Origin: Flammeovirgaceae bacterium 311 | GTDB taxonomy: Bacteria; Bacteroidota; Bacteroidia; Cytophagales; Cyclobacteriaceae | Direction of reading: 5' to 3' | Assembly (NCBI GenBank): GCA_000597885.1 | Contig: CP004371.1 | Coordinates: forward strand, 3,674,501-3,738,500 | Length of the DNA stretch: 64,000 bases | Shown here: one piece after another, positions 3,267 to 43,597 of the stretch | Position numbering within the stretch: position 1 is the first letter of the stretch | Layout: each line of letters starts with the position of its first letter | Notes under the pieces: generated by a model | Databases searched by the model: none | Seen by the model: only the letters and a program-made list of their open reading frames with translations | What the model was told of the DNA's origin: nothing | Position numbers and translations under genes: made by a program

Positions 3267-3999
3267 AAGAATGTACGTGTGCAGCATAGCCGGCCATGAT
3301 CCATCTGCCGGAGCCGGTGTAACCGCCGACCTTAAGACCTTCGAGATGCACAAGGTCTATGGTTTTGGCGTGCTTACGGCTACCACCTGGCAAAACGATG
3401 AAAGGGTGGAACGGGTGCAGTGGCTTAGCACCAGTGATATTCTGAGCCAGCTGGCTTTGCTGGTGCCCAGGTTCACAGTAGATTATTACAAGATCGGCAT
3501 CATCGAGAATACCCAGCGCCTCCTCCAGGTTAGTGGTTATATCAGGCAGGTTAACCCACTGGCTACCATTATCTGGGATCCGGTGCTAAGGGCTTCTGCT
3601 GATTATCCTTTTTTTCAGGGGCCGGCAGACTGGAAAAAACTTATGGGCAGGATTGACTGGCTAACGCCCAACCAGCCTGAGTTTGAGCGGCTAATAGGGT
3701 CTGATGAGCAGGCACTGGAACTCTCACAACACTTTACAATCCTGAAAAAAGGAGGCCATGCACAGGAGCAAAGGGGCAGAGATCTGCTCTTTTACAAAGG
3801 CAACTGCCATATACTGGACCCGGAGACTACTAAAGAAGTGCCCAGCCCCAAGCATGGTTCAGGCTGTGTGCTCGCTGCTGCAATCTGCGCAAATCTGGCC
3901 AGGGGAGCCTCGCCCATAGAGGCCTGCCAGCTGGCAAAGCGCTACATCGAAAAATTCTTAAGCTCCAACAGCAGCCTGCTGGGCTGGCATAATGTGTAA
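3259..3999 (+). CDS. thiD: Hydroxymethylpyrimidine/phosphomethylpyrimidine kinase ThiD
   Basis: A 246-residue ribokinase-fold enzyme that phosphorylates HMP and HMP-P to HMP-PP. The N-terminal SIAGHDPSAGAGVTADLKTFE motif, the LTPNQPEFE segment and the C-terminal anion-hole motif HGSGCVLAAAI with its Cys are all typical. It is slightly short of the usual 260-270 residues. Its start overlaps the previous gene by 8 bp and thiE follows after 6 bp, which indicates tight co-translation within the thi operon. Confidence 0.95.
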   Translation: MAERMYVCSIAGHDPSAGAGVTADLKTFEMHKVYGFGVLTATTWQNDERVERVQWLSTSDILSQLALLVPRFTVDYYKIGIIENTQRLLQVSGYIRQVNPLATIIWDPVLRASADYPFFQGPADWKKLMGRIDWLTPNQPEFERLIGSDEQALELSQHFTILKKGGHAQEQRGRDLLFYKGNCHILDPETTKEVPSPKHGSGCVLAAAICANLARGASPIEACQLAKRYIEKFLSSNSSLLGWHNV

Positions 4000-39769: not shown

Positions 39770-40681
39770 TTAATACAGACCTTCGATGGACAGGTATCTC
39801 TCGCCGGTATCGTAGTTAAAGGTAAGTACCCTGGCACCCTTAGGAATCTCTGCCAGCTTTTTAGCCACTGCCGCTAAAGAGGCTCCTGTAGAAATACCAA
39901 CAAAAATACCTTCTTCTTTAGCTATGCGCTGGGCATATTCAAAAGAGGCTTCCTTGCTCACCTGGATAATGCCATCCAGCAGTTCTGGTTTCATAATGGA
40001 GGGCACAAAACCTGCACCAATGCCCTGCAGCGGGTGCGGACCCGGTGCTCCGCCACTCAATACAGGTGAAAGCTCCGGCTCAACGGCAAATACTTTCAGA
40101 TTCGGGAATTTGTCCTTCAGCACCTCTGCTATCGCTGTAATGTGGCCACCGGTACCCACACCTGTAATCACATAATCAAGACCCTCTGGAAAATCGTTGA
40201 TGATCTCCTGCACCGTAGTTTTGCGGTGTATTTCCAGGTTGGCCGTATTATCAAATTGCTGAGGCATCCAGCTATTGGCTGTGGCCTGTACCAGCTCGCC
40301 GGCCTGTTCAATGGCACCCTTCATACCTTTTTCGCGGGGCGTCAGTACAAACTCGGCACCATAGGCTGCCATTAACTTTCGGCGCTCAACACTCATAGAC
40401 TCCGGCATTACCAGAATCAGCTTATAGCCTTTTACAGCTGCTACCAGGGCAAGGCCAATGCCGGTGTTACCTGAGGTAGGTTCTATAATTACGCTGTCTT
40501 TGTTCAGTACGCCTCTTTGTTCGGCATCTTCGATCATGGCAAGTGCAATACGGTCTTTGATGCTGTTGCCGGGATTATTTTTCTCCAGCTTGATCCAGAC
40601 TTCATGCTGGCTGCCATACAACCTGTTAATGCGTACATGAGGCGTATTGCCAATGATTTCTAAAACATTTTGTGCTTTCAT
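39770..40681 (-). CDS. cysK: Cysteine synthase (O-acetylserine sulfhydrylase)
   Basis: 303 residues. PLP lysine K42 in [10 protein letters not shown], the TSGNTG loop ([13 protein letters not shown]), [13 protein letters not shown] and [14 protein letters not shown] are diagnostic. It combines O-acetylserine with sulfide to make cysteine. It starts 14 bp after cysE ends, so the two form one operon controlled by the upstream tandem leader region (41563-41947). No CysM-type differences are visible. Confidence 0.97.
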
Positions 40682-40695
40682 AGTATGTTCCGGTG

Positions 40696-41529
40696 TTAGA
40701 TTACAAAATTAATTGGTTCGGCAAAGGGGTTCTTTTCCCTTACTTTTATTTCGCTTTTATGATACACTACCGAGTGAGAGGGTACGCTATAAGTTAACCA
40801 TACATTACCACCAATAATACTATTATTGCCAATAATGGTGCTGCCCCCCAGAATGGTGGCGCCGGAGTAAATAATTACCTTATCCTCAATGGTAGGGTGG
40901 CGTTTCTGGTCGGAATAGCCCTTGTCTACATTCAGGGCACCCAGGGTAACGCCCTGATAGATCTTAACACTTTTTCCAATAACGGTTGTTTCGCCTATTA
41001 CAATACCGGTGCCGTGATCTATGGCAAAGGCTTCGCCTATCTGAGCGCCCGGATGAATATCGATACCGGTTTGTCGGTGGGCATATTCAGAAAAAAGTCT
41101 GGGCAGTACTGGTACTTTTAGCTTATATAAGGCATGCGACAGCCGGTGTATGGCAGTAGCATAAAAGCCGGGGTAGGCCAGCAGCACTTCTTCCAGCGAG
41201 CGGGCTGCCGGATCGAACTGCAGAATAGCCTCAGCATCGATGAGCAGCTTTTGGCAAATGCGGGGCAGTTCGTTAAAATAGGCATCTGAAAGATTTGTTC
41301 TTAACTCCTCATCAGGCACTACGCGCTCCAGCAATTGTATAAAACTAGTCTTCAGTACCTGATATTCATGCTGCGTTTCCTCTATGCTGCTAAAGCGTCC
41401 GTGGTAGGGGGTAAACAAAAAATGAAACAGTCTGTCGATCACTGCTTCGGCCTGCTGCTTACCCGGAAAGCCAATAAAGGCTCGCTGGTTCCGCTCAAAA
41501 AGTTGTTGTATAAATTCCTGCTCGCGCAT
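40696..41529 (-). CDS. cysE: Serine O-acetyltransferase
   Basis: 277 residues. A helical N-terminal domain (1-140) precedes the left-handed beta-helix with hexapeptide repeats: [44 protein letters not shown], then [29 protein letters not shown]. The catalytic His and Asp are in the IDHGTG segment. It makes O-acetylserine for CysK. The C-terminus ends PINFVI; a terminal Ile is the feature that lets CysE dock into CysK in the cysteine synthase complex. Gene order is leader A, leader B, cysE, cysK. Confidence 0.95.
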
Positions 41530-41562
41530 ATCAAGTTCTATTTAATCATAATTAGGGTTAAC

Positions 41563-41604
41563 AAAAAAGCCCTGCGGGCTATCTAAGGCTCGAAGGGCTT
41601 TTTT
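41563..41604 (-). terminator. Attenuator terminator B (proximal to cysE)
   Basis: On the minus strand the 5' arm AAGCCCTTCG (41600-41591) pairs with CGCAGGGCTT (41576-41567) around a loop, then TTTTTT follows. It lies between leader peptide B and cysE. Its 5' arm is also complementary to CGAAGG at 41658-41663 inside leader B, giving a competing antiterminator. Confidence 0.8.
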
Positions 41605-41631
41605 TAAACTAGTAGAGCGGATTAGCAATTG

Positions 41632-41745
41632 CTAGGCACAACCATACCAGAAATACTCCTTCGGCGAAAGGGTACAACATGCACAACAACAGCAGGGGCT
41701 GAAGGTGGCATTGCTATGGTAATTTGTGCCGGTATGCTGATTCAT
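41632..41745 (-). CDS. Cys-rich leader peptide B of the cysE-cysK attenuator
   Basis: A 37-codon frame from ATG 41745 to TAG 41632. The peptide starts MNQHTGTNYHSNATFSP and then has CCCCACCT (Cys codons 18-21 and 23-24, positions 41694-41674), followed by LSPKEYFWYGCA. Six of seven consecutive codons specify cysteine, just ahead of an intrinsic terminator and the cysteine synthesis genes. The CCCxACCT core is shared with leader A. I infer that ribosome stalling at these codons when Cys-tRNA is short controls read-through. It is too short for normal gene callers. Confidence 0.85.
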   Translation of the reverse strand: MNQHTGTNYHSNATFSPCCCCACCTLSPKEYFWYGCA

Positions 41746-41762
41746 ATTTTCGATTCAGTAAA

Positions 41763-41797
41763 ATAAAAAAGCCCTGCGGGATAATCCGAAGGGCTCT
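41763..41797 (-). terminator. Attenuator terminator A (distal)
   Basis: On the minus strand AGCCCTTCGG (41795-41786) pairs with CCGCAGGGCT (41779-41770), 6 plus 3 bp with one mismatch, followed by TTTTTATTTT. It lies 31 nt after the stop of leader A. Its 5' arm CCCTTCG is complementary to CGAAGGG at 41842-41848 inside leader A. Confidence 0.85.
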
Positions 41798-41825
41798 TCA
41801 TTATTCAGTGATGAACGTAGTCAAA

Positions 41826-41903
41826 TCAACCCAATAATGTTCCCTTCGTTGTGTTGGTACAACAAGCAGGGCAACAGCAGTTTATTGGATAAGCGGTTTT
41901 CAT
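41826..41903 (-). CDS. Cys-rich leader peptide A of the cysE-cysK attenuator
   Basis: A 25-codon frame from ATG 41903 to TGA 41826: MKTAYPIN, CCCPACCT, NTTKGTLLG. Five of seven codons at 41879-41859 encode cysteine. The codons ACG AAG GGA just after the Cys run contain CGAAGGG, which can pair with the 5' arm of terminator A. A promoter lies only about 14-40 bp upstream, so the leader message would have a very short 5' end. The similarity to leader B suggests duplication of one attenuator unit. Confidence 0.85.
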   Translation of the reverse strand: MKTAYPINCCCPACCTNTTKGTLLG

Positions 41904-41916
41904 TTGCTTTGTGATA

Positions 41917-41947
41917 CAAATTAACTACGTGGAAACTTTTAATCAAA
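41917..41947 (-). promoter_or_regulatory. Promoter of the cys leader-cysE-cysK operon
   Basis: On the minus strand TTTG (41947-41944), a 19-nt spacer and TTAATTTG (41924-41917) match the phylum consensus with one mismatch in the -7 box. The start of transcription would fall near 41910, about 7 nt before the leader A ATG. Confidence 0.65.
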
Positions 41948-42065
41948 ATCTTTTACAGGCAATTTTTAGTTCCTGCCCTGCCCACCGGTTAAAGCAGCTT
42001 AAAGCCTGGAAACCTGCTAACGGGAGCATTGATTGTTTTAACGACAGGCGCCCGCTAATGTTTTA

Positions 42066-42090
42066 GGAGGCTGTGGCCTCCGCAGCCTCC
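42066..42090. repeat. GC-rich hairpin upstream of the cys promoter
   Basis: GGAGGCTG at 42066-42073 and CAGCCTCC at 42083-42090, perfect 8-bp arms with a 9-nt loop. It lies between the FAS1 terminator and the cys promoter. Its function is unknown. Confidence 0.5.
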
Positions 42091-42115
42091 GGGAGCAAGG
42101 AGCGCAAATAAAAGG

Positions 42116-42142
42116 AAAACCATGACCAGAAGTCATGGTTTT
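42116..42142 (-). terminator. Terminator of the FAS1 lipoprotein gene
   Basis: AAAACCATGAC at 42116-42126 and GTCATGGTTTT at 42132-42142 form a perfect 11-bp stem with a 5-nt loop, 27 bp past the stop codon. Confidence 0.85.
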
Positions 42143-42169
42143 AGCCTGGATTGACCTTTACCTAATCGA

Positions 42170-43597
42170 TTAATTTGCGGGCATCAGTACTTCATCGATA
42201 ACATGAATAACACCATTTGTAGCCAGCACATTAGAGGCTCCGGCATTGATATTAGCCCCATTAGATCCTTCTACCATTACCGATGGGGTAGCGGCATCAA
42301 TTACCAGTGTTTCACCAGCCTGCAGCGGTGATACATTGCCATCCATCAGGTCGGTAGAAAACACCCGGCCGCTGATTACGTGTGTCAGCAGGATTGCCTG
42401 CAGCGTAGCTACCGGTATATCGTCGATGCTGTTAATGCCATTGTCGGCATCGTAAACTGCCTGGAAGGCTGCATCGGTAGGAGCCAGCACGGTGTATCCC
42501 ATATCATCATTGTTACCGCTAAGGGCTTCAGCCAGGTTGGCGCCGCCGCCGGTGCTTACCCTCAATACCGCTGCCAGCAGCTGTGTGAATTCAGCTCCAT
42601 CTTCGGCACTTGCCATTTCCTGTACTATCTCTACCAGGTTTTGGGTAGGAGGCATCAGGGTACGGTTTATTACATGTACCACGCCATTTGAGCCTTCTAC
42701 ATCTGTATTCACTACCTCGGTCATACCGTTGATGAATACACCATCATCAGAAAGGCTCACATAAAAATCTTCCTCGGCCAGAGTGCCAACGGCACCTGCA
42801 CTTAAATCGGCAGCCATTACCTCACCGCTCACCACATGGTAGAGCAAAATAGGCTGCAGGTCTTCTGAAGTTAAACCGTCCAGGCTGGTAATGCCTGCTG
42901 CAGCAAATGCATCGTTGGTTGGTGCAAAAACAGTGAAGGGTCCTTCTCCCAGCAGATCATCCACAAGGCCGGCTGTACGCAGGGCCTGCACCAGTATGCT
43001 GAAGTTGTTGTTAAAATAAGCCGGTGCCAGAATGGTACCTGCTACAGCGCGTGGTTCTGCGGGCAGCAGCACACTGCCAATTTTATGTACCACACCATTG
43101 TCGGCTTCCACATCGGCCTGGGTTACACCAATACCATCTACCTGTACGCCGCCGGTGGTGGTAACGGTAAGGCTCTCGCCCTGCACAGTAGCTACCTGTC
43201 CGGCAGTAATCTGCGAGGCCATCAGCTGACGTCCCACAATGTGGTATTCTACAATTTCGCGCACTACCTCCATGGGCAGATCATTCAGTGAAGTTGCGCC
43301 CAACGTGTTTAAGAGGCTTGCAAAAGCAGCATCGGTAGGGGCAAAAACAGTGATATTGGCATTGTCATTGGCAGCAGTTGCAGCCAGATCAGAAAACTCA
43401 GGCATGGTCAAGATAGTCTCCAGGATGGTCAGCTGGGGATCGTTCTGTACTCTTTCCAGTACAGTTCCATTGGTCGGTTCCACAATCTGTGGCGTATCGT
43501 CATCGTCGTCGCAGCTGGTGGCTACCACAGACACCATTGCAAGCGCCAGTAAAAGGCTGCTCCAGCGGTTGTTCATGTTTCTGAAAATTCCCTTCAT
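42170..43597 (-). CDS. Lipoprotein with three FAS1 (fasciclin) domains
   Basis: 475 residues. The lipobox VVATSCDDDDD gives a lipidated Cys followed by acidic residues, a signal for surface export in Bacteroidota. Three FAS1 domains follow, each with its two signature blocks: ITVFAPTDAAFASL/VEYHIVG, FTVFAPTNDAFAAAG/LLYHVVSG, YTVLAPTDAAFQAV/LLTHVISG. FAS1 domains mediate cell adhesion or matrix binding. The gene is transcribed divergently from the PKD lipoprotein gene. Confidence 0.93.
   Translation of the reverse strand: MKGIFRNMNNRWSSLLLALAMVSVVATSCDDDDDTPQIVEPTNGTVLERVQNDPQLTILETILTMPEFSDLAATAANDNANITVFAPTDAAFASLLNTLGATSLNDLPMEVVREIVEYHIVGRQLMASQITAGQVATVQGESLTVTTTGGVQVDGIGVTQADVEADNGVVHKIGSVLLPAEPRAVAGTILAPAYFNNNFSILVQALRTAGLVDDLLGEGPFTVFAPTNDAFAAAGITSLDGLTSEDLQPILLYHVVSGEVMAADLSAGAVGTLAEEDFYVSLSDDGVFINGMTEVVNTDVEGSNGVVHVINRTLMPPTQNLVEIVQEMASAEDGAEFTQLLAAVLRVSTGGGANLAEALSGNNDDMGYTVLAPTDAAFQAVYDADNGINSIDDIPVATLQAILLTHVISGRVFSTDLMDGNVSPLQAGETLVIDAATPSVMVEGSNGANINAGASNVLATNGVIHVIDEVLMPAN

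Follow-up and report, generated by a model that had tools for sequence, protein, structure and literature searches.

A probable cysteine attenuator, conserved and duplicated, upstream of cysE-cysK in Cesiribacter

What controls a cysteine operon that is preceded by two short reading frames, both rich in cysteine codons? To our knowledge amino-acid control in Bacteroidota is poorly charted, and the locus that raises this question lies in a stretch of 64,000 nucleotides from Flammeovirgaceae bacterium 311 (hereafter the window). An earlier note, made from the letters alone, had described two such frames before cysE, each followed by an intrinsic terminator, and had read them as ribosome-mediated attenuators in series. 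Direct reading confirmed both frames, with coordinates that agree within a few bases, and the claim that the downstream genes make cysteine also holds. Both genes lie on the minus strand and, from knowledge of the families, we take them to be cysE (serine O-acetyltransferase, 40696-41529, identified from its ORF and homologues) and cysK (O-acetylserine sulfhydrylase, 39770-40681, identified from its ORF), which starts 14 bases after cysE. The two genes adjoin each other in 19 of the 20 loci tested, including leaderless ones.

Two cysteine-rich leaders and their terminators

The first leader, leader A, is a minus-strand ORF (41903-41826, MKTAYPINCCCPACCTNTTKGTLLG; kept in all three genomes of the genus) whose peptide reads directly as MKTAYPIN-CCCPACC-TNTTKGTLLG. 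Five of the seven codons at 41879-41859 (TGC TGT TGC CCT GCT TGT TGT) encode cysteine, and ten codons separate the end of this run from the stop. Terminator A (regions 3:4, 41798-41767), which starts 27 nt past the stop, has a predicted folding energy of -18.6 kcal/mol and is followed by a U-rich tract up to 41759, while region 2 (41849-41838, ACGAAGGGAACA) is calculated to pair with its 5' arm. Leader B repeats this layout on the same strand (41745-41632, MNQHTGTNYHSNATFSPCCCCACCTLSPKEYFWYGCA; likewise kept in all three genomes), and direct reading gives the peptide MNQHTGTNYHSNATFSP-CCCCACC-TLSPKEYFWYGCA. Here six of seven codons at 41694-41674 (TGC TGT TGT TGT GCA TGT TGT) are cysteine codons, the stop follows 13 codons after the run, and terminator B (regions 3:4, 41600-41567; predicted -15.6 kcal/mol, then U-rich to 41559) starts 31 nt past the stop, with region 2 at 41664-41654 (CCGAAGGAGTA). 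The locus thus combines clustered codons for cysteine in both leaders, an intrinsic terminator between leader and gene, and downstream genes that make the same amino acid. The standard hairpin scan, which has a loop limit of 8, listed a smaller hairpin inside terminator B and did not list terminator A; Rfam 15 covariance models run over 40600-43000 gave two matches, far below the gathering score and neither of them on the leaders.

A putative promoter precedes leader A at 41947-41917 on the minus strand and consists of TTTG (41947-41944), 19 nt and TTAATTTG (41924-41917), the last of which has a single mismatch to TAnnTTTG, the Bacteroidota-type promoter consensus. The same element is present at equal distance in locus L002 and absent from L003. 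Of 18 leader loci (with the leader start of L068 and L070 chosen by judgement), seven have the exact consensus no more than 45 nt ahead of the leader, against 0.9 expected from shuffles; when one mismatch is allowed the same zone scores in 15 of 18 against 10.3 expected, so that the TTAATTTG site alone is weak evidence.

Could the short ORFs have arisen by chance, and could the hairpins simply end the transcripts of small RNAs or of the gene upstream, as any terminator does? TGC-rich stretches are indeed numerous in this genome, in which three fixed cysteine patterns match 198, 137 and 166 times, and six ATG-initiated short ORFs (at most 60 aa) in the window have at least four Cys in nine codons. 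However, leaders A and B are the only ones with at least five, and when the whole window was dinucleotide-shuffled five times no ORF reached that density (ORFs with at least four numbered 1, 1, 4, 1 and 0). For both leader RNAs (155 and 192 bases; z -4.4 and -3.8) the fold is better than that of any of their 200 shuffles, and the gene upstream of the leaders has a terminator-like hairpin of its own at 42142-42116. Taken with the conservation and the strand bias described below, these results leave a chance origin a next to negligible probability.

Conservation and duplication in Cesiribacter

Both leaders and both terminators are found, in the same order, in all three Cesiribacter genomes, namely that of the window (G000) and two others (G001 and G002) whose cysE shares 91% and 73% identity with that of the window. 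The closest named record, Cesiribacter sp. SM1 (L062), carries a cysE 91% identical and is identical in sequence to G001. Conservation of the cysteine runs and terminators in relatives had been set beforehand as a check on the earlier note, and its outcome bears the proposal out and counts against chance. The leaders read MKTANPINCCCLACCAYTTKGTLLG and MNKGTRTYGHSIYTCSSCCCCVCCTPLPKECFWYSCV in G001 and MQTPLFHTCFGSCCCMACCSTAATEGRME and MMLTNTPMPLWYLHCAGCCSMSCCALLSEEQRMCRP in G002, where the run of leader B is less regular (four Cys in its best nine codons). In all six leaders the terminator begins 25-31 nt after the stop and region 2 starts 10-13 nt past the last counted Cys codon (in leader B of G001 and G002 the true last Cys lies one codon beyond the counted one, outside the nine-codon window). 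A late Cys codon near the stop of leader B (41640-41638 in the window) is also kept in all three B leaders.

Between G000 and G001, 12 of 12 cysteines are kept compared with 29 of 48 other residues, start and stop codons being left out (Fisher p=0.006). Preferential retention of cysteine would fit a metal-binding peptide equally well, and the signal might then be not Cys-tRNA but, for instance, a metal or thiol stress that acts on the Cys-rich peptide as it is made. Against this, the regulated genes make cysteine, and the arrangement of the cysteines differs between leaders (CCCPACC, CCSMSCC, CSSLVCCC, CCCCCSS) while the distance to region 2 is mostly kept, which suggests that the codons are read rather than the fold of the peptide. 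We consider metal or thiol sensing very unlikely, and continue with Cys-tRNA as the probable signal.

The two units are also homologous to each other: leaders A and B align with a score of 34, compared with 7.2 (sd 2.7) for shuffles, none of 300 of which scored as high, and when the terminators are removed the score is 16 against 6.4 (sd 2.3), with one shuffle in 300 as high. The exact string CCCGCAGGGCTTTTTT occurs within the window in terminators A and B only. Such homology implies a duplication, and judging by the alignments A and B are most likely paralogous units older than the split of the three species. In G002 the first ATG of leader B comes about 7 nt after the U-run of terminator A, too short a gap for a promoter to fit between the two in that genome. 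Two promoter-like strings, neither of them conserved, were seen by eye upstream of terminator A: TACTTTTG, an exact TAnnTTTG, in G002, and TTGATTTG, which has one mismatch to it and overlaps the stop of leader A in G000. Transcripts starting from these strings would lack leader A, yet would still have both terminators to pass.

Region 2:3 pairing and the position of the ribosome

Two homologous transcription attenuators, ribosome-mediated and sensitive to Cys-tRNA, very probably control cysE-cysK from a single leader RNA on which they lie in series. With ample Cys-tRNA(Cys), ribosomes would pass the Cys codons, the terminators (3:4) would form and RNA polymerase would stop. When charged Cys-tRNA is scarce, a ribosome would stall in the Cys run and leave region 2, some 10-20 nt downstream, free to pair with region 3, so that the polymerase would read on. 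Because both terminators must be passed, we propose that basal expression would be cut twice and that the response to cysteine would be steeper.

The pairing on which this model depends involves CGAAGGG with CCCTTCG in leader A of G000 and CGAAGG with CCTTCG in leader B. The calculated 2:3 duplex amounts to -13.3, -13.3 and -14.1 kcal/mol for leader A (G000, G001 and G002, an order kept below) and to -11.0, -12.7 and -16.5 kcal/mol for leader B; duplexes as good were obtained from 18, 9 and 15 shuffles per 1000 for A and from 76, 4 and 33 for B, the complementarity of leader B in G000 thus not being exceptional. In leader B of G002 the pairing becomes CGGAGG with CCTCCG, the A-U pair of G000 and G001 having been replaced by G-C, and region 4 reads GGGGGGC in place of GCAGGGC, which keeps the terminator (3:4) intact (both read by eye). 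Across these three species this appears as one clear compensatory change, to be taken as a single event and not as a statistic.

To follow the effect of the ribosome, each leader was folded with the ribosome footprint masked. At the stage before region 4 is transcribed, the expected number of 2:3 pairs in leader A is 6.2-10.1 across the three species when the ribosome stands at any of the counted Cys codons and 0.1, 1.8 and 3.7 when it stands at the stop, that is, the classical antiterminator switch by ribosome position in all three species. Since 2:3 forms even with no ribosome present (8.4, 7.4 and 8.9 expected pairs before region 4), the model needs an earlier 1:2 fold that holds region 2. 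In the calculated 1:2 fold of leader A region 2 is paired to 0.97, 0.91 and 0.82; a stall at the Cys codons lowers this to 0.04-0.46 in G000 and 0.02-0.39 in G001 and frees region 2 in part in G002 (0.56-0.73 still paired). In the full-length RNA at equilibrium the terminator is favoured in every ribosome state, so antitermination must be kinetic, as it is generally held to be in attenuators.

For leader B the expected 2:3 pairs are alike with the ribosome at the stop and at the Cys codons (5.3 vs 4.6-4.7 in G000, 10.6 vs 9.7-11.3 in G001 and 8.8 vs 9.0-10.4 in G002) because region 2 ends 15-20 nt short of the stop codon, and the masking calculation reproduced a switch by ribosome position in none of the three species. 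Folding leader B before region 3 emerges did not separate the ribosome states either. The model would still allow that leader B relies on a local 1:2 hairpin, CCCUUUCGCCGAAGG, forming behind the moving ribosome. Of the attenuation mechanism put forward in the earlier note, therefore, the geometry of leader A stood up in the calculation, and the switch of leader B was not reproduced.

These results raise the possibility that leader A is the sole working attenuator and that B is a duplicate in decay, or one with a different action, whose terminator serves as a fixed brake, a reading that would account both for the switch being confined to A and for the less regular Cys run of B in G002. A decaying leader is harder to reconcile with the fact that B keeps its Cys run, start, terminator and 2:3 complementarity in all three species and has undergone the compensatory change described above, and we find this explanation possible and rather unlikely. 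We take the locus to be, very probably, a conserved and duplicated cysteine attenuator before cysE-cysK. Within the preferred reading of two attenuators in series, the mechanism of leader A is well supported by the modelled switch, that of leader B is plausible, and any gain from having two copies is hypothetical. We infer that the leaders are translated, that ribosomes stall in them, that transcription terminates in the cell, and that the operon responds to cysteine with a steepened curve.

Leaders elsewhere in Bacteroidota and comparison with known systems

Similar single leaders precede cysE elsewhere in Bacteroidota. When as much as 700 nt ahead of cysE was scanned, an ATG-initiated short ORF with at least four Cys in nine codons was found in 19 of 157 loci on the sense strand, in 0 of 157 on the antisense strand and in 0.4% of shuffles, a strand bias that argues against chance (the distinct count is 18 of 156, as L062 duplicates L002, and the upstream sequence of L004 and L168 spans 612 and 639 nt only). 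One of the cysE searches matched 189 of 395 genomes, from which 29 loci and 80 fetched stretches were covered; all matches of family f37 and part of the others were left out. Among the cysE loci examined, a second leader-terminator unit was seen nowhere outside Cesiribacter, no Cys-rich leader was found in other genera of its family, and no leader outside the genus has the exact CCCxACC string.

Outside Cesiribacter the leaders fall into two architectures. Six single leaders have a terminator 22-31 nt after the stop: three in uncultured Bacteroidota (L067, L069, L070), two in family f24 (L139, L149), and L068. Of five that were masked in the same way, L069, L070, L139 and L149 switched and L067 hardly did. 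Region 2:3 duplexes as good were given by 2 shuffles per 1000 for L067, 20 for L149, 57 for L139, 153 for L069, 195 for L070 and 649 for L068, which was scanned with a shortened ORF, so that its region-2 result is uninformative; the complementarity of L069, L070 and L068 is not exceptional. The second architecture, found in another class of the phylum (L086, L089, L093, L095, L098, L099, L100, L106 and L122), carries the Cys run at the stop codon or close to it, with the next ATG 52-77 nt further on, and no intrinsic terminator was found in these nine leaders before cysE. L093 and L095 have eight Cys in nine codons.

Several of these loci show further features. In L068 (3290-4000) a Cys leader with its terminator, another gene (presumably encoding a membrane protein), tRNA-Cys (3905-3976) and cysE follow each other in one direction, and the attenuator may also control tRNA-Cys. 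L139 has a second Cys-rich ORF (CCTYNCKC) about 200 nt upstream of its leader, some 611-524 nt upstream of the scan end; no terminator was found after it, for which reason it was not counted as a tandem, and it is possibly a tandem remnant or chance. In L088, L104 and L108 short frames ending in Cys-x-Cys-stop were seen by eye some 85-130 nt ahead of the cysE match; they are possibly degenerate forms of the terminator-less leader.

Searches for a wider regulon gave little. Searching the order for CCCxACC, as had been suggested, returned mostly noise, and the string was rejected as a search tool: it matches 116 of 390 genomes, many of them TGC-rich, and among 30 such loci other than leaders A and B, three (L034, L048, L060) had the run inside an ATG ORF and none had a terminator at a distance of up to 80 nt. 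The third match in the same genome (L040) lacks a start codon. Scanning 90 of the loci matched by the three fixed patterns (30 per pattern) produced one weak candidate, L320, which has a poor hairpin and was taken as chance; with 90 of the genome-wide matches scanned, a wider regulon in this genome is possible. Twelve PAPS-reductase-family loci of the genus, with flanks of up to 1.5 kb, contained neither an ATG ORF with at least four Cys in nine codons nor an ORF with three Cys and a following terminator. Of 30 PAPS-reductase loci across the phylum, one (L205) had a Cys-rich ORF on the sense strand and one had such an ORF on the antisense strand, and none of 30 cysS loci (covering 30 of the 118 genomes with cysS) had an ATG ORF of four Cys in nine codons within 1500 nt upstream on either strand. 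The L205 ORF (...CMCNNCMCCC) lies 571-430 nt upstream of the PAPS-reductase-family match, a gene of sulfate assimilation, in genome G488, which also has a leader before cysE (L106).

In a protein tree of cysE (67 rows), Cesiribacter groups with Adhaeribacter (99/93) and also, at 98/90, with Flavisolibacter and a genome of family f24. The other genera of its family contribute 17 rows, of which 16 form a separate group and the seventeenth, L023, is a long branch. The tree was built without eight loci in which the search motif did not locate cysE (L017, L022, L026, L072, L077, L088, L104, L106) and without L062 and L079; for L109-L188 the sequence covers no more than the beginning of cysE. Cesiribacter cysE-cysK (39770-41529) is thus nearer to homologues from Adhaeribacter and Chitinophagaceae than to the cysE of its own family, and the operon was probably acquired by horizontal transfer or represents a different or old paralogue. 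In the part of the tree that holds Cesiribacter, terminator-type rows occur at three places separated by leaderless rows, a scatter that suggests repeated loss or gain of such leaders (the count of state changes compares labelled rows only).

As an evenly balanced proposal, cysteine attenuation of cysE-cysK could be old or repeatedly invented in Bacteroidota, in two architectures (one with a terminator, the other terminator-less with the Cys run at the stop), and in Cesiribacter an in-place duplication could have created a same-signal series with a multiplicative, steeper response, the first same-amino-acid tandem as far as the literature searches show. If so, part of the phylum regulates its cysteine synthesis through leader-peptide attenuation. 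Cesiribacter would then be a natural setting in which to learn whether a second attenuator for the same signal lowers the leak, steepens the response, or does neither.

The classical ribosome-mediated attenuators are the trp, his and thr leaders. Like them, leaders A and B combine a short ORF containing a run of end-product codons, a putative antiterminator just after it, an intrinsic terminator and a biosynthetic operon; unlike them, they concern cysteine, form two homologous units in series and belong to Bacteroidota. Polycysteine leaderless short ORFs have reportedly been described in mycobacteria (Canestrari 2020). That work is cited in the reference list of PMC13236596. Actinobacterial cys leaders are treated in PMC1262725, whose available text gives Cys runs near the stop codon and, for Mycobacterium, a lack of conserved terminator hairpins. 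Leaders A and B share with them, to that extent, a short Cys-run ORF before cysteine genes, and differ in having an intrinsic terminator each and the Cys run in the middle of the ORF; they do not belong to the terminator-less type with the run at the stop, which the nine terminator-less leaders of the other class do resemble. 

Within Bacteroidota, the accessible parts of two papers describe leader-peptide attenuation before amino-acid operons of Flavobacterium psychrophilum, with no cysteine case there (PMC9723704), and short ORFs in long 5' UTRs of B. thetaiotaomicron (PMC7366714). Among the matches listed, in a literature search whose coverage excluded most subscription journals and bioRxiv, there was neither a cysteine attenuator before a Bacteroidota cysE nor a same-amino-acid tandem attenuator. 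In Rhodobacterales, uORFC-8-2 precedes cysS with two tandem Cys codons and a terminator, and the portion of the source at hand mentions no tandem (PMC8632094); on that account it shares with our leaders a uORF with tandem Cys codons, a terminator and the proposed mechanism, and differs in that it precedes cysS, in Alphaproteobacteria, with two Cys codons, whereas ours lie before cysE. The series arrangement itself has a counterpart in the tandem attenuators of Salmonella mgtCBR, where, according to the excerpted text of PMC3641672, two leader ORFs sense ATP and proline. As in mgtCBR, two leader ORFs lie in series on one leader RNA; unlike those of mgtCBR, which respond to different signals, leaders A and B are homologous units that both carry cysteine runs.
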